64,000 nt of DNA. It comes from a virus. Below, in pieces: positions 1-62,466 of the stretch; within the stretch, counting starts at the first letter, position 1, and each line of letters begins with the position of its first letter. The notes under the pieces are model-generated. The model saw only the letters and a program-made list of their open reading frames with translations. It made no database searches and was not told the DNA's origin. Position numbers and translations under genes: made by a program. The stretch is taken from IMG/VR virus record IMGVR_UViG_3300034101_003554, positions 62,001 to 126,000 of that record, one strand, 5' to 3'.

Positions 1-219
1 TTATTGAACTTTATAAGAATAGGTAGGGTTATAGATGAGTATGGTAATGAAATGGATGTGGAAGATTTTATCACAATGGCGTTAGAATGGGGACAACCTG
101 ATGGATATGATTTAAAACGTTATAGACAAGAACATCCAAGACAATACCATTACGATTTTGAAGTAAAAGAAGAATATATAGATGAATTAAGAATTTCACC
201 AAATAATGAATTTAGTTAA
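1..219 (+). CDS. Hypothetical protein, 5' end outside the window
   Basis: The frame is open from the first base of the window, so the true start probably lies upstream. A TTG at position 4 is the only in-window start near the edge and is unconvincing. The visible part is about 72 residues, polar, with aromatic residues and charged clusters near the C-terminus. I recognise no domain. The stop codon ends one base before the ATG of the RNA ligase, which suggests the two are translated from one transcript. Confidence 0.55.
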   Translation, partial: LLNFIRIGRVIDEYGNEMDVEDFITMALEWGQPDGYDLKRYRQEHPRQYHYDFEVKEEYIDELRISPNNEFS

Positions 220-6865: not shown

Positions 6866-6895
6866 AAAAAAGGGACTATTCAGTCCCTTTTTTCT
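6866..6895. terminator. Bidirectional intrinsic terminator
   Basis: GGGACT / AGTCCC stem with A-run before and T-run after, between convergent genes. It overlaps the last codons of the Clp gene on the minus strand. Confidence 0.85.
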
Positions 6896-8906
6896 TTTTT
6901 GATTTTTTAACTTCTTTTTCTTTAAACACTATGTTTTCTTCATTGGTTGTGAGTTCATATTTTTCATTCTCAGCAACATTTCCGTTAAGTACTTCCTCCG
7001 ATATGAAATCTTCAATTTTGTCTTGTATGGCTCGTTTTATTGGCCTTGCACCATACGTTTCATCAAATCCAACTTTTGATATTAAATCATAAACAGATTC
7101 ATCACAAGTTATATTATAATTTAATCCATTCAATCTATTAATTAATTTTTCAATTTCAAGTTTTACAATTTGTTTAACTTCTTCTTCTTTCAAAGTATTA
7201 AATACAATAATTTCATCAATACGATTTAAGAACTCTGGGGCAAAAAACTTTTTAAGTTCTTTCTTAAGCATATCCCTTTTTTCTTCTTCCTCAATATAAG
7301 AATTTGAACTTGTTTTAAATCCAACACCAGTTCCAAATTCTTGGAATTTTTTAACCCCAAGATTGGAGGTCATAATTATGATACAATTTTTGAAATTGAT
7401 TTTTCTTCCCAATCCATCAGTAAGATGTCCATCATCCAACACTTGAAGTAATGTTGAGAATACATCTTTATTCGCCTTTTCAATTTCATCAAATAGAATA
7501 ACTGAATATGGTTTATTTTTAACTTGTTCAGTTAATTGTCCACCTTCATCATAACCAACATAACCTGGAGGTGAACCAATCAATCTTGATATTGAATGTT
7601 TTTCTTGGAATTCTGACATATCAACTCGGATAAGGTTTTCTTCACTACCGAATATTTCTTTGGCCAATTGTTTTGCTAAATACGTTTTACCCACACCAGT
7701 TGAACCCAAGAAAATAAATGAACCTATAGGTTTACTTGGGTCTTTGATACCAAGTCTATTTCTACGGATTGATTTGGCAATTTTGGATACAGCTTCAGAT
7801 TGACCAATGACTTTGGAAGATAGATTATCAGCCAATGATGAAAGTTTATTTGTTTCATCTGAGTTCATTTTTGATACGGGTATTTTGGTCATATTAGATA
7901 CAACTTCATATACCAATTCAAATGAAATATCTTTCTTCTTGGTTAATAAATCAGATTCAAATTTTTTCTTTTCTGATTCTAATTTATCCAATATTTTTGT
8001 TTCTTTATCTCGTAAATCTGCAGCTTGTTCATAATTTTGACTTTTAACAACCTCAATCTTTTGTTGTTTAATATCCAACGCTTGAAGTTTCAAGTCTTCA
8101 ATTATTTTAGGCATTTTTATTTCCACTTGACTTCTTGCTCCAACTTCATCAATAATGTCAAAAGCTTTATCAGGGAATTCTCTATCTGTGATATATCTTT
8201 CAGCCAAATCAACACAAAGTTTTAGAATATCATCACTATAATTTACTTTATGATAATTTTCATATTTGTCTTTAACATTAATTAGTATCTGTAAGGTTTC
8301 TTCTTTTGTAGATGGGTCAACAATTACTTTTTGGAAACGTCTTTCTAATGCCCCATCTTTTTCAAAATTCTTTCTATATTCATCCAATGTTGTCGCACCA
8401 ATACATTGTATTTCACCCCGGGCCAAAGCTGGTTTAAATATGTTTGAGGCATCCAATGAACCTGATGAATTCCCAGCACCAACAATTTGGTGTATTTCAT
8501 CAATGAAAAGAATTATGTTTGGGGCAGATTGTAGTTCTTCAATGATAACTTTCATTCTTTCTTCAAATTGTCCACGATATTTTGTTCCCGCAACAATAGA
8601 TGTCATATCCAAAGACATAATTCTTTTATCCATCAAATTTCTTGGACATTCCCCATTCAATATTTTTAAAGCCAAACCTTCCACTATGGCAGTTTTACCA
8701 CAACCAGGTTCACCTATTATGATTGGGTTATTCTTTTTTCTTCTTGATAATATTTGAGCAATTCTTGTTATTTCTCTATCTCTACCTACCACGGGATCTA
8801 ATTTTCCTTCTTCGGCAAGTTTGATTAAATCCTTTGCAAAGTTATTTAACACTGGGGTATCACCTTTACCTTTTGTTGAGTAATCTCCATCTTTTGATTC
8901 TATCAT
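6876..8906 (-). CDS. ClpC-like AAA+ protein unfoldase, lacking the N-terminal repeat domain
   Basis: 676 residues with two AAA+ modules. D1 has Walker A GEPGCGKT (65-72) and Walker B LFIDEI (133-138); D2 has GSTGVGKT (401-408) and ILFDEI (470-475). The linker at about 283-310 contains a UVR-type motif (EQAADLRDKE), as in ClpC, rather than the long ClpB middle domain. The double Clp-N domain is missing: the protein starts about 15 residues before the D1 region. D2 contains VGF at 528-530, at the position of the ClpC loop that docks on ClpP. Such proteins unfold substrates for ClpP or remodel complexes; no clpP is in the window, so a host ClpP would be needed. C-terminal GARPIKRAIQDKIED is typical of Clp/Hsp100. 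The basic KKSKKKKGTE tail is unusual. Confidence 0.93.
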   Translation of the reverse strand: MIESKDGDYSTKGKGDTPVLNNFAKDLIKLAEEGKLDPVVGRDREITRIAQILSRRKKNNPIIIGEPGCGKTAIVEGLALKILNGECPRNLMDKRIMSLDMTSIVAGTKYRGQFEERMKVIIEELQSAPNIILFIDEIHQIVGAGNSSGSLDASNIFKPALARGEIQCIGATTLDEYRKNFEKDGALERRFQKVIVDPSTKEETLQILINVKDKYENYHKVNYSDDILKLCVDLAERYITDREFPDKAFDIIDEVGARSQVEIKMPKIIEDLKLQALDIKQQKIEVVKSQNYEQAADLRDKETKILDKLESEKKKFESDLLTKKKDISFELVYEVVSNMTKIPVSKMNSDETNKLSSLADNLSSKVIGQSEAVSKIAKSIRRNRLGIKDPSKPIGSFIFLGSTGVGKTYLAKQLAKEIFGSEENLIRVDMSEFQEKHSISRLIGSPPGYVGYDEGGQLTEQVKNKPYSVILFDEIEKANKDVFSTLLQVLDDGHLTDGLGRKINFKNCIIIMTSNLGVKKFQEFGTGVGFKTSSNSYIEEEEKRDMLKKELKKFFAPEFLNRIDEIIVFNTLKEEEVKQIVKLEIEKLINRLNGLNYNITCDESVYDLISKVGFDETYGARPIKRAIQDKIEDFISEEVLNGNVAENEKYELTTNEENIVFKEKEVKKSKKKKGTE

Positions 8907-9813: not shown

Positions 9814-11760
9814 ATGGAAAGTTTAAATAAAGTCATATCTAGTTTTAAATTAAATTCAACATTACAACCAAAAATTTGGATTGATGGGGGTTCAAAAATA
9901 AATCCAAATGTTAGAAAAAATTTATTAGAAATAGCATATCAATTCATTGATTCCTTTGGGATGGATGTTGTAATTGATGATATCATAGTAACAGGTTCAA
10001 TTGCAAATTATAATTGGTCAGAGTATTCGGATGTTGATTTACATATTTTGGTAGATTACAAACAGTTTTCAAATAAACTTAAAGATATGTATGTTGAATA
10101 TTTTGATTTAAAAAAAATAGTTTTTAATCAAAAAAGAGACATAAAAATGTTTGGTTATGAGGTTGAGGTTTTTGTTGAAGATACTGATGTAAAAGGTGTA
10201 AGTGGTGGTTTGTATTCTGTATTAAATGATGAATGGATAAAAAAACCAACAAAAGAATCTGTTAAAATTTCAAAAGAAGAAATTATTAAAGGGGCTAAAA
10301 AATGGATGAGTATTATTGATACTTTGATTAAAAACTCTGACGATGATGATATTGAAGGTATTCAAAGTAGTGTTAAAAATTTAAAAAACAAACTCAAAAA
10401 GTTTAGATTAAGTGGTCTTAAGGAAGGAGGTGAGTTAGGGTTACAGAATTTAATATTCAAAGTTTTAAGAAGAAATGGGTATATTGAAAAACTTTATTCA
10501 ATTCCATTACAAAAAATAGATAAAAAACTTTCAATTAAAGAAATTACATTATCATCTCCACTTGAAAACTTGGAGGTTGCTGCTAAATTTGGCGTTGTTA
10601 GACCTGGATTGGATACTACAAGACCACATTCTGGTACAGATTTTAGAGCAAGTACTGGTACACCAATTTATGCCCCAGCTGATGGAACAATAGTTAAAGC
10701 TGATATGGGTGAAAATGGTGGATGTGGGGGTTCAATATTCATTGAACATAGTGATGGTTTAGAAAGTCGATTCTGTCATAGTAGTAAAATTATGGTGAAT
10801 GTTGGTGATATAGTTAAAAGAGGTGAAGTTGTAGGACTTGTAGGTGGTGGACAAGGTGACCCAGGTAGAGGGTTTTCAACAGGTTCACATTTACACTATA
10901 CTTTAGTCAAAAATGGTGAATTGGTTGACCCTATTGACTATATTGATAAAGATTTTGATATACCAAATATTGAGGCTGAAGAATATGAGGCGACAGAATT
11001 AAATATATCTTTAGATAAAATATCCGAAATAAAGGAAAAGATATATGATTATGATTCTAGTTTAGAAGACAATGATGACCCTGAAATTTTGGAGGATTCT
11101 AAACAAAGTAAATTTATGTCAGATTTTTTAAAAATGGTTAAAAGTGATATTGATGTATCTGAAGATGATAAAATTATTACCAATAATCCTGAAGTTGAGC
11201 AAATACAAATAGCTTTACAATTTTTAGAGTATTTAGATTTAAATTATGGTATTGATGGATTTTATGACGAAAAAACAATAAATGCTTTAAATGAATTTAG
11301 AGATGATTTTGATTTACCAAAAACAAGTGAAATAAATAAAGATGATTTATTATATATGTACTATTTGTTATTATACAAATTATTTGATGACACAAAATTA
11401 TCTAGAATAAACAAAACAATTAATTTTGATGAGTTAAAAATAACAAATATAAATAATTTTTATCAAATGGTTTTAATTACTATTGGGGCTGATATAACAT
11501 ATAATAATGTTAATTTTTTAAATGCTTGGAATGATGCAACTTCAATTGGGGGTGAAGAAAATCCATTTGGGTTACCATATAAGAAAGAAAAAAATATATC
11601 AAGTCCTTTGTATAATACAATAGATATTTTAAACACTGTTGAATATAGTTGTGTTAGATTTGGTTTAACAAAAAATAAAAAAATTGATGAAATTTTAAGT
11701 TGTCCTATATTTAGGACTAATGATTTAAAAGAAAAAATTAAAAATTTTTTACATAAATAA
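9814..11760 (+). CDS. Nucleotidyltransferase-like / M23 peptidase / PG-binding fusion protein
   Basis: 648 residues. Residues about 40-125 resemble a minimal nucleotidyltransferase: GSIANYNWSEYSDVDLHI gives Gly61-Ser62 and Asp73/Asp75, with a VEVFVED strand after it. Residues about 255-380 are an intact M23 (LytM) peptidase: His272 and Asp276 in HSGTDF, His322, and HLH at 359-361. Residues about 460-520 resemble a peptidoglycan-binding domain (GIDGFYDEKTINALNEF). M23 enzymes cut peptidoglycan cross-links, so the C-terminal part is a plausible virion lysin or endolysin. The N-terminal fusion is odd and I know of no standard role for it. No signal peptide. A TATTTATC lies only 4 nt upstream of the ATG. 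Confidence 0.8.
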   Translation: MESLNKVISSFKLNSTLQPKIWIDGGSKINPNVRKNLLEIAYQFIDSFGMDVVIDDIIVTGSIANYNWSEYSDVDLHILVDYKQFSNKLKDMYVEYFDLKKIVFNQKRDIKMFGYEVEVFVEDTDVKGVSGGLYSVLNDEWIKKPTKESVKISKEEIIKGAKKWMSIIDTLIKNSDDDDIEGIQSSVKNLKNKLKKFRLSGLKEGGELGLQNLIFKVLRRNGYIEKLYSIPLQKIDKKLSIKEITLSSPLENLEVAAKFGVVRPGLDTTRPHSGTDFRASTGTPIYAPADGTIVKADMGENGGCGGSIFIEHSDGLESRFCHSSKIMVNVGDIVKRGEVVGLVGGGQGDPGRGFSTGSHLHYTLVKNGELVDPIDYIDKDFDIPNIEAEEYEATELNISLDKISEIKEKIYDYDSSLEDNDDPEILEDSKQSKFMSDFLKMVKSDIDVSEDDKIITNNPEVEQIQIALQFLEYLDLNYGIDGFYDEKTINALNEFRDDFDLPKTSEINKDDLLYMYYLLLYKLFDDTKLSRINKTINFDELKITNINNFYQMVLITIGADITYNNVNFLNAWNDATSIGGEENPFGLPYKKEKNISSPLYNTIDILNTVEYSCVRFGLTKNKKIDEILSCPIFRTNDLKEKIKNFLHK

Positions 11761-16141: not shown

Positions 16142-17905
16142 ATGAGTTTAACAAAAGAACAAGTAATGATTGAATATCTTAAGTGTATGAAAGATACCCC
16201 ATACGCGTTAAGAACATATCTGGAAACCTATGATAATACTGTATCAAAATATGTTCCATTAGAGTTATTTCCAGACCAAATATCATTATTAAAAGATTAT
16301 GAAGATTTTAATGAAAACATCGCATTAAAGTATAGACAAGCTGGTGTATCAACAGTAACTGCAGCTTGGGTGTCGTTAAAAATTGCTTTTGCCAAAAAGA
16401 CAAAACCTGAAAAGATTCTAATCATTGCCAACAAATTGGATACATCTATGGAGATGGCAAATAAAATAAGAATGTTTATTGGTCAATGGCCTAGTTGGGT
16501 TGGAATTGATTTTTCAACTGATAAAAATTCACAAAAACATTACAAGACAAACAATGGATGTGAAGTAAAAGCTGTGGCGACATCAAAGGATGCTCTACGT
16601 GGTTTTACACCAACAATCCTAGTATTTGACGAAGCCGCATTTATTGACGCGGATTCAGACTTTTGGGCGGCTTGTATGGCCTCACTATCAACTGGGGGTA
16701 AAGTTATTGTAGTGTCAACTCCAAATGGATATGACCCAATTTATTATGAGATTTATAACCAAGCAAATAGAGGAATGAATGATTTCAAAATTTCTGAAAT
16801 GTATTGGTTTAGAGACCCAAGATATACAAAAGATTTATATCTAGTCAAAACACAAGATGTTGTTCATTATCTTCGTAATAAAACGGAATATAGTGATAGT
16901 GATGTTATAAGTTGGGAACATATTCCATTTGAAAAAAGAAATTACGAGGAACTTAAATTAATGATGAATTCAGGGTACAAACCTTGTTCATCTTGGTTTG
17001 AGGGAATGGTAAAGAAACTTAAGTATGATAAAAGAAAAGTTTCCCAAGAATTAGAATGTAATTTTCTTGGGTCAGGTGATAATGTATTTGATTCTCTTTT
17101 AATGCAGAGAGTTAAAGAAAATATGATTAAAGAACCCCAAAATAAAATGATGGGTAATTCTTTATGGATATGGAAAGAACCTGTAATGGGACACAAGTAT
17201 GTTATGGGTGTGGATGTCAGTAGAGGGGATAGTGAAGACTTTAGTTCTTTCCAAATTATTGATTTTGATACAAGAGAACAAGTTGCAGAATATGTTGGGA
17301 AATTACCTCCAGATACAATGGCTGAAATATGTTATAAGTGGGGTAATATGTATAATTGTTTTATTGTAATAGATATAACTGGTGGTATGGGGGTTTCAAC
17401 ATCAAGAAAATTACAAGAGTTGGGTTATAAAAATTTATATGTGGATGGGGTTGATTTGGCGAACAAATGGAAGTATGACCCCAAGGCATTGGATAAAATT
17501 CCTGGACTTAATTTTAATAATAAACGTGTTCAGATAATTGCATCATTTGAGGAAGCAATGAGACATGAATTTAAGATATATAGTTCAAGGTTATTTGATG
17601 AGATGAACACCTTTATTTATGTAAATGGAAGACCAGACCACCAAAAGGGACAACACGATGACTTAATAATGTCAATTGCAATGGCGACTTATGTTGCCGA
17701 ATCATCTTTCAGCAGTTTGGAAAAAGTTACAGAACAAACAAAAGCAATGTTGGAATCTTGGTCTGTAAGTAATAATGAAAATATGGGGAAACAATTGGAG
17801 TTTAATCCAGTAATACCATATGGGCATGAAAGAATTAACCAAAGAAATCAAAATCTAAGTAGAGAAGATTATCAAAAATATGGTTGGTTATTTGGTGGAA
17901 GATAA
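16142..17905 (+). CDS. terL: Terminase large subunit, T4 gp17-like
   Basis: 587 residues. The ATPase domain has a deviant Walker A, LKYRQAGVST at 62-71, with Lys63 before the loop and no lysine in the usual GKT place, and Walker B ILVFDEAA (159-166, Asp163-Glu164). A coupling-type STPNG motif is at 192-196. The RNase-H-like nuclease has Asp358 (GVDVSRGD), Asp411 (VIDITGG) and Asp506-Asp507 (QHDDLIMSIA). It packages DNA into proheads through the portal. It heads the head-morphogenesis operon after a terminator and promoter motif. No small subunit is visible in the window. Confidence 0.95.
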   Translation: MSLTKEQVMIEYLKCMKDTPYALRTYLETYDNTVSKYVPLELFPDQISLLKDYEDFNENIALKYRQAGVSTVTAAWVSLKIAFAKKTKPEKILIIANKLDTSMEMANKIRMFIGQWPSWVGIDFSTDKNSQKHYKTNNGCEVKAVATSKDALRGFTPTILVFDEAAFIDADSDFWAACMASLSTGGKVIVVSTPNGYDPIYYEIYNQANRGMNDFKISEMYWFRDPRYTKDLYLVKTQDVVHYLRNKTEYSDSDVISWEHIPFEKRNYEELKLMMNSGYKPCSSWFEGMVKKLKYDKRKVSQELECNFLGSGDNVFDSLLMQRVKENMIKEPQNKMMGNSLWIWKEPVMGHKYVMGVDVSRGDSEDFSSFQIIDFDTREQVAEYVGKLPPDTMAEICYKWGNMYNCFIVIDITGGMGVSTSRKLQELGYKNLYVDGVDLANKWKYDPKALDKIPGLNFNNKRVQIIASFEEAMRHEFKIYSSRLFDEMNTFIYVNGRPDHQKGQHDDLIMSIAMATYVAESSFSSLEKVTEQTKAMLESWSVSNNENMGKQLEFNPVIPYGHERINQRNQNLSREDYQKYGWLFGGR

Positions 17906-18111: not shown

Positions 18112-19938
18112 ATGGAACAAAATGAAAAAAATTTAACAATATGGCAAAGGTTAACTCAAACCTTTGGACCTAATTCTTTATTAAATCAAGATTATCCAAC
18201 ATATAAGTTTGATAAAAAAGAATTATTACGTACTACATCTAAACAAGAATATGATAAAGAGTTATTACAAGCTCAACAAACATATTACTTGGCAAATCAA
18301 TGGACTAAAATAGAAAGTAATTTATATACTCAAGCGGTGTATTATGAACCAACTAGATTAGCTTCATTTTACGATTACGAATCTATGGAATATACACCTG
18401 AAATATCTGCAGCTTTGGACATTTATGGTGAAGAATCAACTACTGTTGACCATAATGGTAATATGTTACAAATATACTCAGAGTCAAAAAGGATTAAATC
18501 AATTTTAACTGATTTATTTAACAATGCTTTAGACATTAATACAAACCTACCAATGTGGACAAGAAATACTTGTAAGTATGGTGATAATTTTGTTTATCTT
18601 AAACTTGACTCGGAAAAAGGTATTGTTGGTTGTATGCAACTACCAAACATTGAAATTGAGCGTTTGGAACGAGGTACGCCAGCTCAGGCTACAAGACAAA
18701 ATACTGAAGAACCCGCAGAAAACAAAGGTTTACGATTTAAATGGAAAGTGAAAGATATGGAATTTAATGCTTGGGAAATCGCTCATTTCCGTTTACTAGG
18801 TGATGATAGAAAACTTCCATATGGTACATCAATGTTGGAAAAAGCAAGACGTATTTGGAAACAATTATTATTATCTGAGGATGCTATGTTGATATATAGA
18901 ACTTCACGCGCACCAGAAAGACGTGTATTCAAAGTATTTGTTGGTAATATGGATGATAAAGATGTTGAATCGTATGTACAACGTGTTGCCAATAAATTTA
19001 AACGTAGTCAAGTAGTTGATTCTCAGACAGGTAATGTAGATATGAGATTTAATCAAATGGCGGTTGACCAAGATTATTTTATCCCAGTAAGGGATGCCGC
19101 AACAGCAAGTCCAATTGAAACTTTGGCGGGTGGTACAAACTTGGGTGAAATTGCCGATATTGAATACATCCAAAAGAAATTATTGACAGCACTTCGTGTA
19201 CCTAAAGCTTTCTTAGGTTTTGAAGAACCCGTTGGTGATGGTAAAAATCTTTCTTTGATTGATATAAGATTCGCTAGAACAATCAATAGAATACAAAAAT
19301 GTATGATAGCTGAATTAAATAAGATTGCAATTATACATTTATTCCTTTTAGGTTTTGAAGATGAGTTAAATAATTTCACATTGGGATTAACAAATCCATC
19401 AAGTCAGGCTGATTTATTAAAACTTGATGTTTGGAAAGAAAAATTTGTGACATATAAAGAGGCGACAACTGCCGATCAAACTGGTTTTATGCCAGTATCA
19501 ATCACTTGGGCTAAAAAACATATTTTAGGATTCTCCGATGAAGAATTAAAACTTGATTTACAACAACAAAGAATTGAAAGGGCTGTTGGGGCTGAATTAA
19601 CTAATACCGCAACAATTATTACTAAAACAGGAATATTTGATAATATTGATAAATTGTATGGTTCAACAACAGGTACTACTGAAGGAGCAGCACAACCACC
19701 ATCTAGTGATATGGGAGGTTCTGGTGATATGGGTTCATCAATACCTCCTCCTCCACTAGGAGGAGCTGAAGAACCAGCAGGGGGTGGACTTACACCTGAA
19801 TCAAATCAAAAGGACAATTTAAATATACTATTAGAAAGCGATAATTTATTGGATGATGACTCATATATTGATTTATCCAAAGCAAGAAATTATTTAGGTG
19901 AAATTGAATCGCAATTAAATAAACTATTAAACTCTTGA
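18112..19938 (+). CDS. Portal protein, T4 gp20-like
   Basis: 608 residues. The N-terminal two thirds follow the gp20 pattern: YEPTRLASFYDYESMEYTPE near residues 80-100, then a CKYGDNFVYLKL segment (the clip/wing region), HFRLLGDDRKLPYGTSMLE, and APERRVFKVFVGNMD. Family portals form the dodecameric ring at the capsid vertex through which DNA passes and on which the prohead is initiated. The C-terminus has a Gly/Pro/Ser-rich insert (about 518-560) before a final acidic helical segment. Position between terminase and prohead protease matches T4 order. Confidence 0.93.
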   Translation: MEQNEKNLTIWQRLTQTFGPNSLLNQDYPTYKFDKKELLRTTSKQEYDKELLQAQQTYYLANQWTKIESNLYTQAVYYEPTRLASFYDYESMEYTPEISAALDIYGEESTTVDHNGNMLQIYSESKRIKSILTDLFNNALDINTNLPMWTRNTCKYGDNFVYLKLDSEKGIVGCMQLPNIEIERLERGTPAQATRQNTEEPAENKGLRFKWKVKDMEFNAWEIAHFRLLGDDRKLPYGTSMLEKARRIWKQLLLSEDAMLIYRTSRAPERRVFKVFVGNMDDKDVESYVQRVANKFKRSQVVDSQTGNVDMRFNQMAVDQDYFIPVRDAATASPIETLAGGTNLGEIADIEYIQKKLLTALRVPKAFLGFEEPVGDGKNLSLIDIRFARTINRIQKCMIAELNKIAIIHLFLLGFEDELNNFTLGLTNPSSQADLLKLDVWKEKFVTYKEATTADQTGFMPVSITWAKKHILGFSDEELKLDLQQQRIERAVGAELTNTATIITKTGIFDNIDKLYGSTTGTTEGAAQPPSSDMGGSGDMGSSIPPPPLGGAEEPAGGGLTPESNQKDNLNILLESDNLLDDDSYIDLSKARNYLGEIESQLNKLLNS

Positions 19939-20000
19939 TATTTATTTTAATAATTTGTTATTGTTTAACAATAAAATAAAAAAAGAAAAAATATAACAAA

Positions 20001-20714
20001 ATGAATTTTGGTTCAATTAAATCAAAAATAGAAAAATTACTTTCGGAGTCTTATTCAAAACAAGAATTAAAACTTGATATGAAAGTATTTAAAACTTTAG
20101 TTTTAGAAAATAAAAATATTAGTAAGTTATTTTATTTATACGATGAGTTAAGTAGTAACAAGGGTATGAGTGAAACTATTGTGAATGATTACATTAATGA
20201 ATGTATCATTATGTATGAAAATATAATAAATAAAATATCTAAAAAAGATTTAAACCAATTAAAATTGTGGGTTTCAGATATTAAATCTGATAATAAATAT
20301 GAAAAAATTGATAATTTGTTTGAGACAAATATTTTCAAATTAGAACATAAAATTTTAAGTAGAAAATTAATTGCAGAATCTCTTAAAAAATCTAACAAAG
20401 AATCAAAAGAAGTTATTAATTTACCAATAAGTACGATGATAAATTTGGCAAACAAAACTATCAATAATTATATTGGTAATATGAATGAATCAGAGAAAGA
20501 AGAACTATCTAAGTTATTAAAGATAGATGAAAAAGATATAAAAGATTCATATCTAAACATTAAAGAAAATGTTTTAGATAAATTAAATAAATTGTTAATT
20601 GACTCCGATACAGAAACATCTGAAAAAATTAGTGAATCAATTTCAAAAATTAAAGATGAGAAATTTGATAAACTAAATTATTACAGATTAAAATCACTTA
20701 ATGATAGTATTTAA
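20001..20714 (+). CDS. Hypothetical helical protein, 237 aa, candidate internal head protein
   Basis: Almost entirely alpha-helical by composition (Lys/Glu/Ile/Leu/Asn), without membrane segments. The N-terminus contains LSES at 14-17, compatible with a gp21-type (L/I)xE cleavage. It lies between portal and protease, where T4-like phages keep prohead-core genes. No family recognised. It converges with the bS21 gene, one base separating the two stops. Confidence 0.6.
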   Translation: MNFGSIKSKIEKLLSESYSKQELKLDMKVFKTLVLENKNISKLFYLYDELSSNKGMSETIVNDYINECIIMYENIINKISKKDLNQLKLWVSDIKSDNKYEKIDNLFETNIFKLEHKILSRKLIAESLKKSNKESKEVINLPISTMINLANKTINNYIGNMNESEKEELSKLLKIDEKDIKDSYLNIKENVLDKLNKLLIDSDTETSEKISESISKIKDEKFDKLNYYRLKSLNDSI

Positions 20715-20715
20715 T

Positions 20716-20901
20716 CTAATTTAAATTTATTTTTTCCACATACTTTGCTTTATTTACTAAATTTCTTCTAGTTACTGAAGGTTTTGTAAATTCTTTTCTA
20801 TTTCTTAACTCAGACATCAATTTAGTTTTGATTACCTTACTCTTAAATAATTTAAGAGCTTTTTCTATTGGTGTCTTATTATCTACGTGTACAATTAACA
20901 T
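20716..20901 (-). CDS. rpsU: Ribosomal protein bS21
   Basis: 61 residues matching bacterial S21 along its length: an N-terminal strand MLIVHV, then IEKALKLFKSKV, LMSELRNRKEF and TKPSVTRRN, ending in a basic helix. The TKPS-x-TRR segment and the short C-terminus are like Bacteroidetes S21 proteins. bS21 sits near the 3' end of 16S rRNA and takes part in initiation, so a phage copy could replace host bS21 on ribosomes and bias initiation to phage mRNAs. It is alone on the minus strand inside the plus-strand head operon, so its expression is separate. Phage-encoded bS21 is known from other large phages. Confidence 0.92.
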   Translation of the reverse strand: MLIVHVDNKTPIEKALKLFKSKVIKTKLMSELRNRKEFTKPSVTRRNLVNKAKYVEKINLN

Positions 20902-20996
20902 AAGTTTTAATTTTATTTTGATTTATTATTGTTTTTGACTTATTTAATAAATTTAATTACATTTAATTAAAATAAACAGAAATTAATTTTTTTTTA

Positions 20997-21446
20997 ATGA
21001 AAAAGGGTAAAACCTCAAAAATTATAGGATTCAAAAACACTAAAGTCACTTATGGTACAGTTGATTCATTTGAATTAAAATCAATTTACTTAAATATCCA
21101 AACTTGGGTTGAACCCTATAAAGATTCAGATAATTGGAACAGAGTGGTTTTAAATCTATCTAGGTCAATAAAACATATTGTATTACGGTCAATAAACCAA
21201 AAATTTTTTAAAGAAAATTTTATAGTTGATTTAGACCTAAGACCTAGTGGTATTAACTTAAATAAAAAATCATTTTTAAATCTTGAAATCAATTTATTTA
21301 CAAATATTGAGAGTCTTGACTTTAAAGATAATTTTTTAAAAGAGTCATTGAAAGACTTAACAAAAAATATAATTAATTCAAATTTTAGTAAAAATGATTA
21401 TTTTAATTTCTCAATAACCAAAAAGACTAAGTCTCCAAATGTATAA
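20997..21446 (+). CDS. Hypothetical protein, 149 aa
   Basis: Basic, soluble protein with alternating hydrophobic strands in the middle (HIVLRSINQKF, FIVDLDLRPSGINL) and a Lys-rich C-terminus. It lies between portal and protease genes and is probably a head or neck assembly protein, but no family is recognised. The start follows a T-run; no Shine-Dalgarno sequence. Confidence 0.65.
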   Translation: MKKGKTSKIIGFKNTKVTYGTVDSFELKSIYLNIQTWVEPYKDSDNWNRVVLNLSRSIKHIVLRSINQKFFKENFIVDLDLRPSGINLNKKSFLNLEINLFTNIESLDFKDNFLKESLKDLTKNIINSNFSKNDYFNFSITKKTKSPNV

Positions 21447-21482: not shown

Positions 21483-22202
21483 ATGGACTTAAAAATAATT
21501 AAACCTGGAGAAATTGGTAAGGGAATTTTAATTGAATATGATGCAGGTTATGTATCACCAAGAACTGAACATAATTCATTTATATTAGAACAAAAATCTT
21601 ATTTAGACCATTCCAAACCATTTGAATTCTACGCTGTATTACAAAAATATAATACACCAAATCGTAATGGTAGAATTTATCCAGAAAAGATATTAAAGAG
21701 AGAAGCCGAGAATTATAAAAAGATAATTCAAAAAGGAACATCTTTATCTGAATTAAATCACCCAGAATCATCTTTAATTGACCTTGATAGAGTATCTCAT
21801 ATCATAAATGAAGTTTGGTGGGAAGGTCCTATATTAATGGGTAAACTCAAATTATTAACATCACCAGGATTCCACGAAAGAGGTATAGTATCAACTAAAG
21901 GTGATATGGCGGCAAATTATTTAAGACAAGGTGTTACCCTTGGTATTTCTTCTCGTGGAGTTGGTTCGTTAAAAAAAGTTGGTGAGCAAAATGAAGTCCA
22001 AGATGATTTTGAATTAATTTGTTTTGATTTGGTTTCTTCACCATCAACACCTGGTGCTTATCTTTTCTTAAATAAAGATGATAAACATATGTATGAAGAA
22101 AATCTTGAAGAAGAGAAAAAAATGTCAATAGAAAGAAATGTTGGTGATAGTGGTAATAAATCACTTGATTTAATGAAAAAATTGTCTAAACTTGGGTATT
22201 AG
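21483..22202 (+). CDS. Prohead core protease, T4 gp21-like
   Basis: 239 residues. Key segments are NRNGRIYP (61-67), SELNHPES with the catalytic His93, and LGISSRGVGS with the serine nucleophile at 156 or 157. These place it with the S78/U9 herpesvirus-assemblin-like prohead proteases. It would cut scaffold, internal proteins and the N-terminus of the capsid protein after (L/I)xE, driving maturation. It lies directly upstream of the scaffold and capsid genes as in T4. The C-terminal ~35 acidic residues could be a self-removed tail (inference). Confidence 0.92.
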   Translation: MDLKIIKPGEIGKGILIEYDAGYVSPRTEHNSFILEQKSYLDHSKPFEFYAVLQKYNTPNRNGRIYPEKILKREAENYKKIIQKGTSLSELNHPESSLIDLDRVSHIINEVWWEGPILMGKLKLLTSPGFHERGIVSTKGDMAANYLRQGVTLGISSRGVGSLKKVGEQNEVQDDFELICFDLVSSPSTPGAYLFLNKDDKHMYEENLEEEKKMSIERNVGDSGNKSLDLMKKLSKLGY

Positions 22203-24241: not shown

Positions 24242-26089
24242 ATGGGAGCATTATTAGAAAGCGGTCTTGTTGGTAACATTGGTTTAAAACACCTTAAAGT
24301 TATCAAAGAAGATACTATTAACAAATGGGATAGATTAGGATTCCTTGATGGCCTTAGAGGTCACCTAAAAGAAAATGTTGCACAGTTATATGAAAACCAA
24401 GCATCATTCTTAATCAATGAGGCAACAGCTGATGGAAGTTCTGGTTCATTCGAAACAGTTGTATTTCCAATCGTTAGACGTGTATTCTCTAAATTATTAG
24501 CAAATGATATCGTATCTGTACAAGCTATGAACTTACCTATCGGTAAATTGTTCTACTTCGTACCTAAAATCCAAGGTTATAATGGTGGTGGTAATACCAA
24601 TTCTGGTGAACATTACGGTCCGTTTGGCGCTCCAGGAGGTCCTAGTGAAGTAAACGCAGGTTATGGTGATAGTGCTGGAGCTTATCAAAAAAATCTTTAT
24701 GATTTATTTTACGAAGGTAATGAACCTAGTTTAAATCCTGCCGGATTATTTGATTATTCTAAAGGTCAATGGTCTGCGATTACAACTGGTACAACAGTTC
24801 AAGTTTGGAGTAATGGTCTATTAACAGGTGCTACAGATCAATTTACAGCTAACACTACTATCAGAAAAGTAATCGTTAAACTTTGTAATTTCACTAACTT
24901 AGGTGTTGGTAAACTTATTGCTCCTGATGGTAATGAAATTGACACAGAATCTTTCTTGTCTGATTTGAAGCTTATGGCGACTAGCGCTAAAAGTGAATCA
25001 GCATTCTCATCAGATACTTGTGATGCAATATACAATGTCGATGGAAGTAAAAAATCATTATTGTTTAGAGTTGTAACTCAACAATATGGTAAAGGTATTG
25101 TTTCTCCAACATCAACACCAAATAAAACTACATGGGCTTCTAATGGTGGTGGTGGAACATTCAATGACATTTGTGGTCAAGATGGTTGTATCTATTTAGA
25201 AGTTGACCTTTCTTGTCCAGTATGTGCAACTTGTGATAATTCTAACACAATTGATGGTTACACTGGTACAACTTTAACAAGTACTTTATCTGGAGACGCT
25301 TTCACAGCTGTTTGGAGAAGATACGAAGAACTTGAATTCGAAGATAAAATTGGTGAAGTTTCTTTCGACCTTGAATCAGTAACTGTTTCTGTAACTGAAA
25401 GAAAACTTAGAGCTCAATGGTCTCCTGAACTTGCTCAAGACGTTGCAGCATTCCATAACATTGATGCTGAAGCTGAATTGACGGCTCTTCTTTCTGAACA
25501 AGTTGCTGCTGAAATCGATAGAGAAATCCTTCGTGACCTTAGAAAAGGTGCGGCTTGGAACTTGAGATGGGACTACAACGGATGGAGAAGAATTCAAAAT
25601 ACAACTTCTTACACTCAAAAAGACTGGAACCAAACGTTGATTACTGCTATCAACCAACTTTCAGCTCAAATTCACAAATCAACTCTTAGAGGTGGTGCTA
25701 ACTGGATTGTTGTTTCTTCTGAGGTTTCTGCAATCTTTGATGACTTGGAATACTTCCACGTATCAAATGCTTCTCCTGAGCAAGACCAATACAACATGGG
25801 TATTGAAAGAGTAGGTACATTAGCTGGTAGATACCAAGTATATCGTGACCCTTACTTCCCACCTAACCAAGTGTTAATCGGACATAAAGGTACATCACTT
25901 CTTGATACTGGTTACATCTACGCTCCGTATGTTCCACTTCAATTAACTCCAACAATGTATAATCCATTCAACTTTACTCCTATTAAGGGTATTATGACAC
26001 GTTACGCCAAAAAAATGGTGAACAACAGATTTTATGCCAGAATTACAGTTGATGGTGTTAGAACATTTGACTTACAAGAATTGAGATAG
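24242..26089 (+). CDS. Major capsid protein, T4 gp23-like
   Basis: 615 residues. The N-terminal region ends in SFLINE|ATADGSSGS; cleavage after Glu60 would fit the gp21 rule and the length of the gp23 propeptide. Next come ETVVFPIVRRVFSKLLANDIVS and NLPIGKLFYFVPK, hallmark gp23 segments. The C-terminal half has the conserved LRAQWSPELAQDVAAFHNIDAE and a final GIMTRYAKKMVNNRFYA. A Gly/Cys-rich insertion at about 300-345 carries five cysteines including CPVC. Codon use is richer in C-ending codons than in neighbours, consistent with very high expression. Confidence 0.96.
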   Translation: MGALLESGLVGNIGLKHLKVIKEDTINKWDRLGFLDGLRGHLKENVAQLYENQASFLINEATADGSSGSFETVVFPIVRRVFSKLLANDIVSVQAMNLPIGKLFYFVPKIQGYNGGGNTNSGEHYGPFGAPGGPSEVNAGYGDSAGAYQKNLYDLFYEGNEPSLNPAGLFDYSKGQWSAITTGTTVQVWSNGLLTGATDQFTANTTIRKVIVKLCNFTNLGVGKLIAPDGNEIDTESFLSDLKLMATSAKSESAFSSDTCDAIYNVDGSKKSLLFRVVTQQYGKGIVSPTSTPNKTTWASNGGGGTFNDICGQDGCIYLEVDLSCPVCATCDNSNTIDGYTGTTLTSTLSGDAFTAVWRRYEELEFEDKIGEVSFDLESVTVSVTERKLRAQWSPELAQDVAAFHNIDAEAELTALLSEQVAAEIDREILRDLRKGAAWNLRWDYNGWRRIQNTTSYTQKDWNQTLITAINQLSAQIHKSTLRGGANWIVVSSEVSAIFDDLEYFHVSNASPEQDQYNMGIERVGTLAGRYQVYRDPYFPPNQVLIGHKGTSLLDTGYIYAPYVPLQLTPTMYNPFNFTPIKGIMTRYAKKMVNNRFYARITVDGVRTFDLQELR

Positions 26090-42384: not shown

Positions 42385-43437
42385 TTATAAATTTTTATTA
42401 TGTAAGTATATGTCATCAATAATGTCATATATATTATTTTTTATTTCCCAATTAGGATAATCTTTTTTGAATTTTGAATTATCTGATATATACCAAATGT
42501 GGTCTCCTTCTCTATTCTTATTGTCAATAGTATAATTTAATTTTAAATTATATCTATCTTTTAATAGATTAATTAATTCTAATATAGATATTGAGTTATT
42601 TCTACTACCACCAATATTGTAAACTGATGCTGATTTTGGATTATTATGGTAAAACCAAAAAGCATTAACCAAATCAAAAGAATGGATATTATCCCTAACT
42701 TGTTTTCCTTTATAACCATAAATGGTGTATGGTAAATCATTAATAGCTGTTTTGATTATGTAAGATAAAAATCCATGTAATTCACTTCCTTTATGATTTG
42801 GTCCTGTTAAACAACCACCTCTAAAACATACTGTATTCATATCAAAATATCTACCATACTCTTGTACTAATAAATCCCCTGATAATTTACTAACACCAAA
42901 TAAGCTATGTTTTGTATAATCAATTGACATAGTTTCATCTATACCATTATAAAATTTATGATTATTAATTATTTCATATCTAAAATCGGTTTCAATTAAT
43001 GGTAATAAATTAGGATTATCTCCATACACTTTATTTGTACTTGTATATATAAATGAAGCTTCTTTACAATATAATCTAGTTAATTCTAATAAATTTAAAG
43101 TACCATTAGCATTTATTGTAAAATCAGTTAAAGGTTCTTTTGCAGCCCAATCGTGAGATGGTTGTGCTGCGGTATGTATTATTGATACTATACTTTTTTT
43201 ATACTTTTTAAAGATTGTAGATAACTCATCATAGTTTCTAATATCAATATCAAAATGAGTATAATTTTGAAATGTTTTTATATCTTTCAAAGTATCTTTA
43301 GTACTACTTTTCACCCCAAAAAAATAAGACCTCATATCATTATCAATACCTATAATGTGATAACCCTTATCCAAAAAAAATTTAACAGATTCAGACCCAA
43401 TCAATCCATTAGAACCTGTAACAATAATCGTTTTCAT
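42385..43437 (-). CDS. NAD-dependent epimerase/dehydratase, CDP-paratose 2-epimerase-like
   Basis: 350 residues from ATG 43437 (a TTG nine bases upstream would overlap the neighbour). GSNGLIG at 8-14 is the NAD-binding loop, then GIDNDMRSYFFG, AAQPSHDWA and STNKVYGDNPNLLP are typical of the CDP-paratose/tyvelose epimerase subfamily of extended SDRs. The catalytic YxxxK position reads LFGVSK, with Phe for Tyr, which I also recall in this subfamily. GKQVRDNIHSFDLV closes the domain. It would make or interconvert a nucleotide sugar for the transferases around it. Confidence 0.85.
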   Translation of the reverse strand: MKTIIVTGSNGLIGSESVKFFLDKGYHIIGIDNDMRSYFFGVKSSTKDTLKDIKTFQNYTHFDIDIRNYDELSTIFKKYKKSIVSIIHTAAQPSHDWAAKEPLTDFTINANGTLNLLELTRLYCKEASFIYTSTNKVYGDNPNLLPLIETDFRYEIINNHKFYNGIDETMSIDYTKHSLFGVSKLSGDLLVQEYGRYFDMNTVCFRGGCLTGPNHKGSELHGFLSYIIKTAINDLPYTIYGYKGKQVRDNIHSFDLVNAFWFYHNNPKSASVYNIGGSRNNSISILELINLLKDRYNLKLNYTIDNKNREGDHIWYISDNSKFKKDYPNWEIKNNIYDIIDDIYLHNKNL

Positions 43438-51706: not shown

Positions 51707-52921
51707 TTATTTTATTAATGTTTTGTACCATTCAGCTCTAGTCTTAGTTACATTTCTTAAATCGTACTTGTCTTTAACACTCTCGTACAATCTTTCCCCA
51801 AGGTCGGTAATATAATTGGGATTATAAACTAAAGTCTTAATATATTTTGCCCAATCACTATGATTTCTATTTTCATGAACCAAAAGAGCATTACCATCAC
51901 CAAAAATACCATTTTTCATTGTATGTTTCAAATCAATAGTGTAAGGACCTACTTCAGATGCAATTAAAGCTTTTTTATAAAATCCAGCCTCAATAACTTT
52001 TAATTGTGACTTAACCCTATTAAAAATATGGTTTTTAATTGGGGCCATTGAAATATCAAACTTGGAATAATTTGTTGCGTAAGTATTAATATGTTTTGTC
52101 CAAACACGTCTATAAGGTAATGCTGTTGGATTTGGATATTCTTCATCTTTAAATTGATTTAAAAAGTTTTTATAACCTTCGTCAATAATTGAATAATTGT
52201 TTGTGAAAATTTCTTCATATCTAACCCATACAGTTTCTTCAGGTTTAATTGGCCTTTGTTTTCTTTCCCCAGTTGTTTGGTTTATTTCAGTCACCGAACC
52301 TCTAATATCAAAACCACATAAGACATATTGAACTTTGTCTTTCAAATTTGCATTCTTACCAACAAATCCCTCCAATAACTTTAAGTCGTGAAGATGTGAA
52401 GAACCACCTAACCATCCAACTCTAACTCTTCCAGATTCTTCTGTAGGTTGATTAAATTGGGGTTCGGTAGGGTTAATTGCATTAGGTAATACCACAACAT
52501 TCCTATTTAATTTTCTTATCTCATCCGCAAAGATACTTGTAGTTGTTGTAACATAACTTGCGACTTTTAAGTTCGCCATAATCTTTTCGTGTATCTTATC
52601 TTGAACAATCAATGAATGTATTGGGTGTTCTTTTCCAGGTAGCCAATAATCATCCAAATCTACAATAACAACAATACCAAGTGATTTTAAAAAATTAATT
52701 AAGGTTGGGGTCTGTTCATAAGTGTGTCCAATATTTCTATGAATATGAACAATTTGATATTGTTTCCAATAATTAACATTATTAATCTGTGGTTGATAAT
52801 CTATATCCACATGAAAGTCATCTGGATACATATTTTGTAACATAACATGGGGATCTACAGAACGAAATTTTCCTACACCGGTTGTGTCACTTGGGAGTAC
52901 AAGTACTTTTATTTTTGACAT
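51707..52921 (-). CDS. GT-B (GT4-like) glycosyltransferase
   Basis: 404 residues. An N-terminal Rossmann segment VLVLPSDTTGVGKFRSVDPH, VVIVDLDDYW and VVVLPNAINP, then VRVGWLGGSSHLHDLKLLEG starts the donor domain, with KVIEAGFYKKALIASEVGPY at the nucleotide-sugar site. First gene of the minus operon on its 5' side; 4 nt separate it from the exonuclease gene. Confidence 0.82.
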   Translation of the reverse strand: MSKIKVLVLPSDTTGVGKFRSVDPHVMLQNMYPDDFHVDIDYQPQINNVNYWKQYQIVHIHRNIGHTYEQTPTLINFLKSLGIVVIVDLDDYWLPGKEHPIHSLIVQDKIHEKIMANLKVASYVTTTTSIFADEIRKLNRNVVVLPNAINPTEPQFNQPTEESGRVRVGWLGGSSHLHDLKLLEGFVGKNANLKDKVQYVLCGFDIRGSVTEINQTTGERKQRPIKPEETVWVRYEEIFTNNYSIIDEGYKNFLNQFKDEEYPNPTALPYRRVWTKHINTYATNYSKFDISMAPIKNHIFNRVKSQLKVIEAGFYKKALIASEVGPYTIDLKHTMKNGIFGDGNALLVHENRNHSDWAKYIKTLVYNPNYITDLGERLYESVKDKYDLRNVTKTRAEWYKTLIK

Positions 52922-60441: not shown

Positions 60442-62466
60442 ATGGGTTCTTTTAGTTTATCAGGTGGTGTTGAAGTTTTTGGTTTTATTTCTCCAAGTAA
60501 TACCACAGACCAATATCCAGTTATTGACCCCTTATATGGTATTGATGGTTTAAGAAACGTTAATACTTTAAGTGATTTAAATTTAATTCCGACACTTAGG
60601 AGAAGGGCTGGTATGCTTGTGGGTGTAAGTGGAGGGACTATTTATTATAAACTAAATTTACCCCCTTGGAATGGCACACTATCGGATTGGAGTTTATTTG
60701 AGTTAGGTTTTACTGGTGGTACTGTAACTGGAAATACAATTTTCACTAATGGTATTACAGCTAATACTATTTCCGCTTCAACATATCTTAATTTACCTAT
60801 TGATGTTTTTGTAACTGGAGGAACTTATGATAATGTATTAGGTATTGCAACATTTACAAATAATACTGGTGGAACATTTAATGTCAGTGGTTTATTCACA
60901 GGGGCGACTGATATATTTGTTACAGGTGGGACTTATAATGATAATACATTTACATTCACAAATAATACTGGTGGAACTTTTGATGTTTCATTTAATTCTG
61001 TAACTGGATTAACAATTAATGGGGATTTAAATGTAACTGGTAATACGATAGTTGATGGTATTACTGCAAATACTATTTCAGCTACAACTTATGAAAATTT
61101 ACCAATTGACATCAGAGTAACTGGTGGAACATATTCTTTAGGTACTGCAACCTTCACAAACAATACTGGGGGTACATTTAATGTCACAGGATTTTATACG
61201 GGAAATACTGACAACTATATCACAGGTGGAACTTTTGATAAAAATACTGAAACTTTAACATTGACTGATGTAACTGGGGGTACGATTAGTATTTCAGGTT
61301 TCAGTGATGTATTTGTAACGGGTGGTACATTTTCAGGTGGTAGTATAGTTTTTACAAATAATAGTGGTGGAACATTTAATGTATCAGGCATATCATCATT
61401 TGATACATTTGTCACAGGATTTTCTTATTCAAATAATACATTCACAATATCTCAAAATAGTGGTACATCATTAACGGCAACAATTAATTCGGTAACGGGA
61501 TTAACGGCATCAACAATATCCGCAGCAACATTTAATGGGGATATTGTTGCGCTAAATGGAACATCAGTTACAAATCCAACATATAGAACATCATTAGGTG
61601 GTTCTAATTTAAGTCCAAGGGCGACATTTGGTAGTGAATCAAATGCCGCAAGTTTACATAGGTATATTTTTGACCCAGTTAATCAAAATGGATTAGTATT
61701 TTCTATAGCAAATAATGGTAGTGTTTATATCGCAAGAGGTGGAATTGTTGCTGGTGGTTCAGGTTCTATATCACAAGAAATTGGTGATTTAAGATTTTTT
61801 ACTTTAAATTCACCTAATGCTACTTTATTCTCAGAAAGAATGAGATTAGACCATTTTGGTAATCTTGGTATTGGTACAACATCTCCATCTGAAAAATTAG
61901 ATGTTGTTGGAAAAACAAAAACAACAAGTATTCAAATAACATCAGGGGCAACAAATGGATATGTTTTAACTTCAGATGTTAGTGGTAATGGTACTTGGCA
62001 ACAAATACCTTCATTTACTGGTGGTACGATAACTGGTAGTACAAATTTCACAAACGGATTAACCGCGAATACAATATCTGCAACGACATATCAAAATCTT
62101 CCAATTGATTATAGGTCGTTTGGTGTTGTTGTTGATGGTGCTGGTTCAGTAATAACAACTGGTAATAAAGGGTATTTAAGTTTACCATATTCAGGTTATA
62201 TTACAGGGTGGAGAATACTTGGTGACCAATCAGGTTCAACATCAATTGATGTATGGAAGACTAATTATATTGGATTTCCTCCAACATCTGGGGATAGTAT
62301 AACTGGAGGTAATTATCCAAATTTAACTTCACAACAAATAAATGAGGATTATTCTTTATTAGGTTGGACAACAGGTTTTACAAGTGGTGATATAATTTCA
62401 TTTAATGTTTTATCCGCTAGTACAACAACAAGAATAAACTTAACAATTAATGTTATTAAAACATAG
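60442..62466 (+). CDS. Repetitive tail-fibre protein, 674 aa
   Basis: The N-terminal ~90 residues are distinct (GSFSLSGGVEVFGFISPSNT). Then come copies of the same modules as in the 57905 gene (FTGGTVTGxTxFxNGITANTISA, VTGGTYDN, NNTGGTFNVSG). A region near 470-500 has GNLGIGTTSPSEKLDVVGK, which is common in long fibres before the tip. The C-terminal ~100 residues after LPIDYRSFGVVVDG form a separate tip domain. No S74 chaperone motif is seen. Likely a long tail fibre that contacts the host. Confidence 0.82.
   Translation: MGSFSLSGGVEVFGFISPSNTTDQYPVIDPLYGIDGLRNVNTLSDLNLIPTLRRRAGMLVGVSGGTIYYKLNLPPWNGTLSDWSLFELGFTGGTVTGNTIFTNGITANTISASTYLNLPIDVFVTGGTYDNVLGIATFTNNTGGTFNVSGLFTGATDIFVTGGTYNDNTFTFTNNTGGTFDVSFNSVTGLTINGDLNVTGNTIVDGITANTISATTYENLPIDIRVTGGTYSLGTATFTNNTGGTFNVTGFYTGNTDNYITGGTFDKNTETLTLTDVTGGTISISGFSDVFVTGGTFSGGSIVFTNNSGGTFNVSGISSFDTFVTGFSYSNNTFTISQNSGTSLTATINSVTGLTASTISAATFNGDIVALNGTSVTNPTYRTSLGGSNLSPRATFGSESNAASLHRYIFDPVNQNGLVFSIANNGSVYIARGGIVAGGSGSISQEIGDLRFFTLNSPNATLFSERMRLDHFGNLGIGTTSPSEKLDVVGKTKTTSIQITSGATNGYVLTSDVSGNGTWQQIPSFTGGTITGSTNFTNGLTANTISATTYQNLPIDYRSFGVVVDGAGSVITTGNKGYLSLPYSGYITGWRILGDQSGSTSIDVWKTNYIGFPPTSGDSITGGNYPNLTSQQINEDYSLLGWTTGFTSGDIISFNVLSASTTTRINLTINVIKT

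Follow-up and report, generated by a model that had tools for sequence, protein, structure and literature searches.

A reverse-strand bS21 gene without a Shine-Dalgarno sequence among phage head genes: a candidate replacement for the ribosomal protein of a Bacteroidota host

A phage gene lodged on the reverse strand between head genes encodes a Bacteroidota-type ribosomal protein bS21, which probably serves as a swap-in for host bS21, keeping the anti-Shine-Dalgarno (anti-SD) tail of the 16S rRNA tucked away while being made free of the host's SD-based autoregulation. This reading comes from comparative sequence analysis of the window (the whole stretch of 64,000 nucleotides, positions 62,001 to 126,000 of IMG/VR record IMGVR_UViG_3300034101_003554) and of related loci. 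The bS21 gene, its reverse placement, and the idea of a ribosome take-over are already published: Chen et al. (2022, PMC9723584) describe bS21 in Bacteroidetes myoviruses, with a conserved Tyr54 and a divergent N-terminal helix, and propose that it replaces host bS21. The additions made here, not found in the literature covered, are an SD-free leader, a promoter-like site of the divergent gene, loci lacking bS21, and a 4-nt overlap of the convergent genes. The features of the locus are as follows:

16142-17905, + strand: terminase, a head gene
18112..19938, + strand: T4-type portal protein, a head gene
19938..19945, + strand: ATATTTAT element, roughly 62 nt ahead of the convergent gene, seen in the window and also after the portal stop in L303, L309, and L312
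20001..20714, + strand: convergent neighbour of 237 aa, function unassigned
20716..20901, - strand: phage bS21 (rpsU-like), 61 aa, with Pfam and PHROG matches and 84 distinct relatives
20740..20742, - strand: Tyr54 codon of bS21, read from the sequence
20902..20926, - strand: translation leader of bS21, with no SD (duplex with the 16S tail +1.7 kcal/mol, that is, no pairing)
20935..20963, + strand: promoter-like site of the divergent gene, TTGACT-17 nt-TACATT, a pattern conserved in relatives
20997..21446, + strand: divergent neighbour, a conserved alpha/beta protein of 149 aa
21461..21468, + strand: ATATTTAT element preceding the protease gene, a putative late element conserved in junctions
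21483..22202, + strand: prohead protease (Peptidase_S77), a head gene
24242-26089, + strand: Gp23 major capsid protein, a head gene

The bS21 frame starts with ATG, stops with TAG, and yields the product MLIVHVDNKTPIEKALKLFKSKVIKTKLMSELRNRKEFTKPSVTRRNLVNKAKYVEKINLN. A profile search, which the first-pass annotation had named as the test of its identity, matched PF01165 (Ribosomal_S21) at 51 bits against a cut-off of 27 (E=1.2e-13, profile positions 2-52 of 55), and the PHROG match is likewise ribosomal protein S21. The assignment to the Bacteroidetes type is supported by the nearest solved chains, which are Bacteroidota-type bS21 (including 7JIL from F. johnsoniae), and by a tree of 117 bS21 sequences, in which 48 of 49 phage rows group together (97/83) within Bacteroidota bS21. 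The phylogeny against host bS21, which had been expected to identify the host lineage, cannot name it because the tree rests on 64 usable columns and most forks are without resolution. A family search of the whole 141,041-base virus record, which is probably a fragment, found no second bS21. A chance open reading frame is excluded, since a scan of viral contigs recovered 75 loci with a related bS21, core residues are common to the 84 distinct relatives, and the protein is under purifying selection. In pairwise dN/dS analysis, most comparisons indicate such selection (dN 0.08 and dS 0.37 for the window against L012), with the close pair L008/L035 as an exception (dN 0.045, dS 0.061).

The terminase and T4-type portal genes on one side and the prohead protease and Gp23 capsid genes on the other all lie on the + strand, as do both immediate neighbours of bS21; the reported position of bS21 on the opposite strand between head genes is borne out. 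The convergent gene ends at 20714, so the single base said to part its stop from that of bS21 is confirmed. The description of the gene as lying inside the head operon stands as to its position among head genes but not as to the operon: according to Chen et al., RNA mapping shows that the region is not transcribed as a single unit (PMC9723584), and bS21, which is read from the opposite strand, must have a transcript of its own. Pfam and PHROG searches returned no match for the convergent protein. The structure of the divergent protein was predicted with confidence (pLDDT 88.8), and a fold search with it retrieved nothing informative from the PDB and a single homologue, an uncharacterised myovirus protein. 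Elsewhere in the window are genes for an RNA ligase with an OB-fold domain (206-1231, +), a ClpA/ClpB-type AAA unfoldase of 676 aa (6876-8906, -), and a 648-aa protein with M23 peptidase and peptidoglycan-binding domains (9814-11760, +), whose N-terminus has weak nucleotidyltransferase-like matches below curated cut-offs. A long reverse-strand cluster has nucleotide-sugar epimerase and glycosyltransferase matches (42385-43437 and 51707-52921, both -) and perhaps comprises surface sugar genes.

A relative of the divergent gene adjoins bS21 in nearly every locus with enough flank, and a wider scan for such relatives recovered at least 585 encoding stretches; the phage group is therefore large. 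Among 79 further loci, bS21 was present in divergent orientation in 73 and not in 6. Four of these six with long enough flank (L303, L304, L309, and L312, the first two being near-copies) have the convergent and divergent genes with no bS21 between them. That the divergent gene occurs only with bS21, which held in the first 79 judgeable loci, is thus broken by these four. They also indicate that the divergent gene is independent of bS21 and that bS21, though stably kept at the head-gene site, is dispensable there. A quickly built tree of the divergent protein (limited support, very long outgroup branch) places L309 among bS21 carriers, which suggests loss of bS21 in its lineage, and L303 and L312 near the base.

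At the protein level, a comparison of 84 distinct phage and 74 host bS21 sequences separates a shared core from a divergent half. The docking residues F38, K40, S42, R46, A52, and Y54 are common to both sets; position 54, where Tyr stacks on the anti-SD tail in F. johnsoniae (PMC9976891 and PMC9723584), is Tyr in 76 of the phage sequences, including that of the window, and His in 8. About ten N-terminal positions (7, 8, 10, 18, 21, 23, 24, 27, 28, and 30) split phage from host proteins: host K/R18, K/R21, F23, and E24 become mostly L/Q, S, V/I, and I in phages, and host G27, V28, and K/R30 become mostly R/K, Q/L, and S/T/G. These phage-type substitutions are common across the clade and nearly absent in hosts. 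Chen et al. reported divergence at positions 21, 23, 25, and 28 (PMC9723584), whereas here it is strong at 21, 23, 24, 27, and 28 and position 25 is not divergent. Since Tyr54 is kept and the N-terminal part is systematically divergent, the proposal that the phage protein may act differently in initiation is reasonable; it has already been published (PMC9723584).

The leader sets the phage gene apart from many of its host counterparts. Bacteroidota ribosomes shelter the anti-SD tail in a pocket formed by bS21, bS18, and bS6. The SD of many host rpsU genes is exceptionally strong, which enables ribosomes lacking bS21 to translate them and closes a feedback loop (McNutt et al. 2023, PMC9976891). 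SD strength was measured as the duplex energy between a 13-nt 16S tail and the 20 nt from -22 to -3, with both the canonical and the Chryseobacterium-type tail used and the stronger value taken. An extended SD (-13 kcal/mol or stronger) was found in 0/84 distinct phage leaders versus 17/69 host genes, which were sampled by family search and span a whole class. At -10 kcal/mol, the counts were 1/84 and 18/69 (Fisher p=2e-6, a value that overstates the case because leaders share ancestry and rows are not independent). Phage leaders are not entirely free of SD-like sequences: in five relatives (L243, L245, L272, L289, and L290), AGGAG(G) lies 14-16 nt before the start, compared with 6-13 nt in hosts. 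A scan of genome contigs with the phage protein gave only 4 loci, and L078 and L080, the nearest host bS21 genes recovered, which lie in an apparently chromosomal context, also have no SD, so the missing phage SD may partly mirror the host lineage. The phage genes of the window are SD-less overall (1/59 at -7 or below versus 3/59 in mock windows), as is expected of a Bacteroidota phage. Three bS21 genes (L083, L084, and L085) occur in one Saprospiraceae assembly, two of them about 5 kb apart on the same contig.

Taken together with the protein comparison, the leader points to a scheme in which, in infected cells, phage bS21 would stand in for the host protein on the 30S subunit. The conserved C-terminal half would seat it at the normal site and leave the 16S anti-SD tail tucked, a state that would suit SD-less phage mRNAs, while the phage-specific N-terminal half, on the mRNA side, may alter the choice of mRNA. 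Many host rpsU genes need a free anti-SD for strong expression; as the phage gene has no SD, its translation by bS21-replete ribosomes, and hence escape from the feedback, is to be expected. A further step, which we regard as tentative and rather doubtful, is that the feedback is itself hijacked: SD-free phage bS21 would fill the 30S subunits, the anti-SD would stay tucked, SD-dependent rpsU would be shut down, and host bS21 would be steadily replaced by a form with an altered mRNA-side surface. The virus record yielded no ClpP, which might have served to remove host bS21. Entry of a phage bS21 into E. coli ribosomes has been demonstrated with the pelagiphage protein, the only one tested; these ribosomes were almost inactive (about 5%), which counts against the replacement reading (Mizuno et al. 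2019, PMC6375957). Chen et al. report a high bS21 transcript signal together with structural genes (PMC9723584); as their RNA quantification counts all bases mapped per gene, with no strand separation mentioned in the passages covered, this signal may include antisense reads.

The surrounding signals bear on how the locus would be transcribed. The pattern TTGACN-(16 to 18 nt)-TANNNT directed towards the divergent gene was found in 84/85 distinct intergenic regions (1.4 expected in shuffles), and L312, which has no bS21, still carries TTGACA-17-TATAAT at the site, which assigns it to the divergent gene. Over the whole window, TTGAC-TANNNT shows no excess (16 found, 16.2 expected); what is significant is only the conservation of the pattern between bS21 and the divergent gene. 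ATATTTAT precedes the protease in 78/80 distinct junctions (3 expected in shuffles), and of the 32 window genes preceded by non-coding DNA, 15 have TATTTAT upstream, in most cases 19-36 nt from the start and with fairly tight spacing. By position only, TATTTAT/ATATTTAT is a putative late element, with a role as late promoter or in translation both conceivable. TATTTATA corresponds to the T4 late promoter TATAAATA in reverse complement. Neither a TTGAC-TANNNT-type site nor the late element was found upstream of bS21 in the window; ATAT[TA]T[AG]T, which resembles the late element, precedes bS21 in 41/84 relatives (2.7 expected), mostly at -13. A host -33/-7 promoter for bS21 (TTTA-16..20-TANNTTT, 40/85 versus 10.5 expected) was dropped, as it overlaps conserved elements of the divergent gene.

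The convergent arrangement raises the alternative that overlap and mutual control of the two transcripts are the main role of the reverse placement. Most relatives show an overlap of exactly 4 nt between the stop of bS21 and that of the convergent gene, the exceptions being the window (1-base gap), L021 (2-nt gap), and L070, L074, and L076 (17-nt overlap); bS21 in the window is 1-3 residues shorter than in most relatives. No terminator-like site was seen between the genes in the window, and in L309 the convergent gene is followed, where bS21 would be, by a terminator-like hairpin-plus-T sequence, so the 3' ends of the two transcripts likely overlap. Such overlap does fit antisense regulation, but stop-to-stop packing is common in compact phage genomes and purifying selection on the protein indicates that the gene is not merely a carrier of antisense RNA, so that we consider control of this kind very unlikely to be the main role.

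Two other explanations concern the protein. Phage bS21 might act just like the host protein, merely supplementing a loosely bound subunit that runs short late in infection, with the choice of mRNA unaltered; the conserved core and Tyr54, the reported exchangeability of bS21, and the SD-less state of phage mRNAs, which host mRNAs in Bacteroidota share (PMC9976891), would all accord with a dosage supplement of this sort. A simple copy, however, would not need the clade-wide N-terminal substitutions, and we hold this explanation to be unlikely. A role off the ribosome, for example as a virion-packaged RNA-binding protein linked to head assembly, would explain the fixed position among head genes, and packaging is raised as a possibility by Chen et al. 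(PMC9723584). Yet the ribosome-docking residues, Tyr54 among them, are retained, and the four bS21-less loci have the same head genes, which makes such a role highly improbable. Replacement of host bS21 remains our preferred reading.

Comparison with known systems places the locus close to clades a-e of Chen et al. (PMC9723584), which share the reverse bS21 between terminase, portal, protease, and major capsid genes, hypothetical genes on both sides (a neighbour in that group is bS21_CN, fam498), Tyr54, and the divergent N-terminal helix. The differences are that those phages have complete genomes of 293-331 kb, whereas the present record has 141 kb, and that the stop-to-stop gap in the window is 1 base. 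Host rpsU of Bacteroidota shares the bS21 family and the anti-SD-tucking residue (PMC9976891) but differs in its extended SD leader and in lacking the phage-specific substitutions; the host locus L080 has recombinase and hpf-like neighbours that the phage gene does not. The bS21 of pelagiphage HTVC008M is also phage-encoded, and that form has been shown in E. coli ribosomes (PMC6375957); unlike the protein studied here, it is of the alphaproteobacterial type and was acquired separately, by a phage of a different phylum. The SD-free leader, in turn, predicts a phage gene that would be immune to the feedback repressing rpsU and a product that would trigger it.

To our knowledge, no viral ribosomal protein is more common than phage bS21. 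It is a candidate example of ribosomes being specialised by a virus, and Bacteroidota would be well suited to testing this idea because bS21 in these bacteria governs the availability of the anti-SD.
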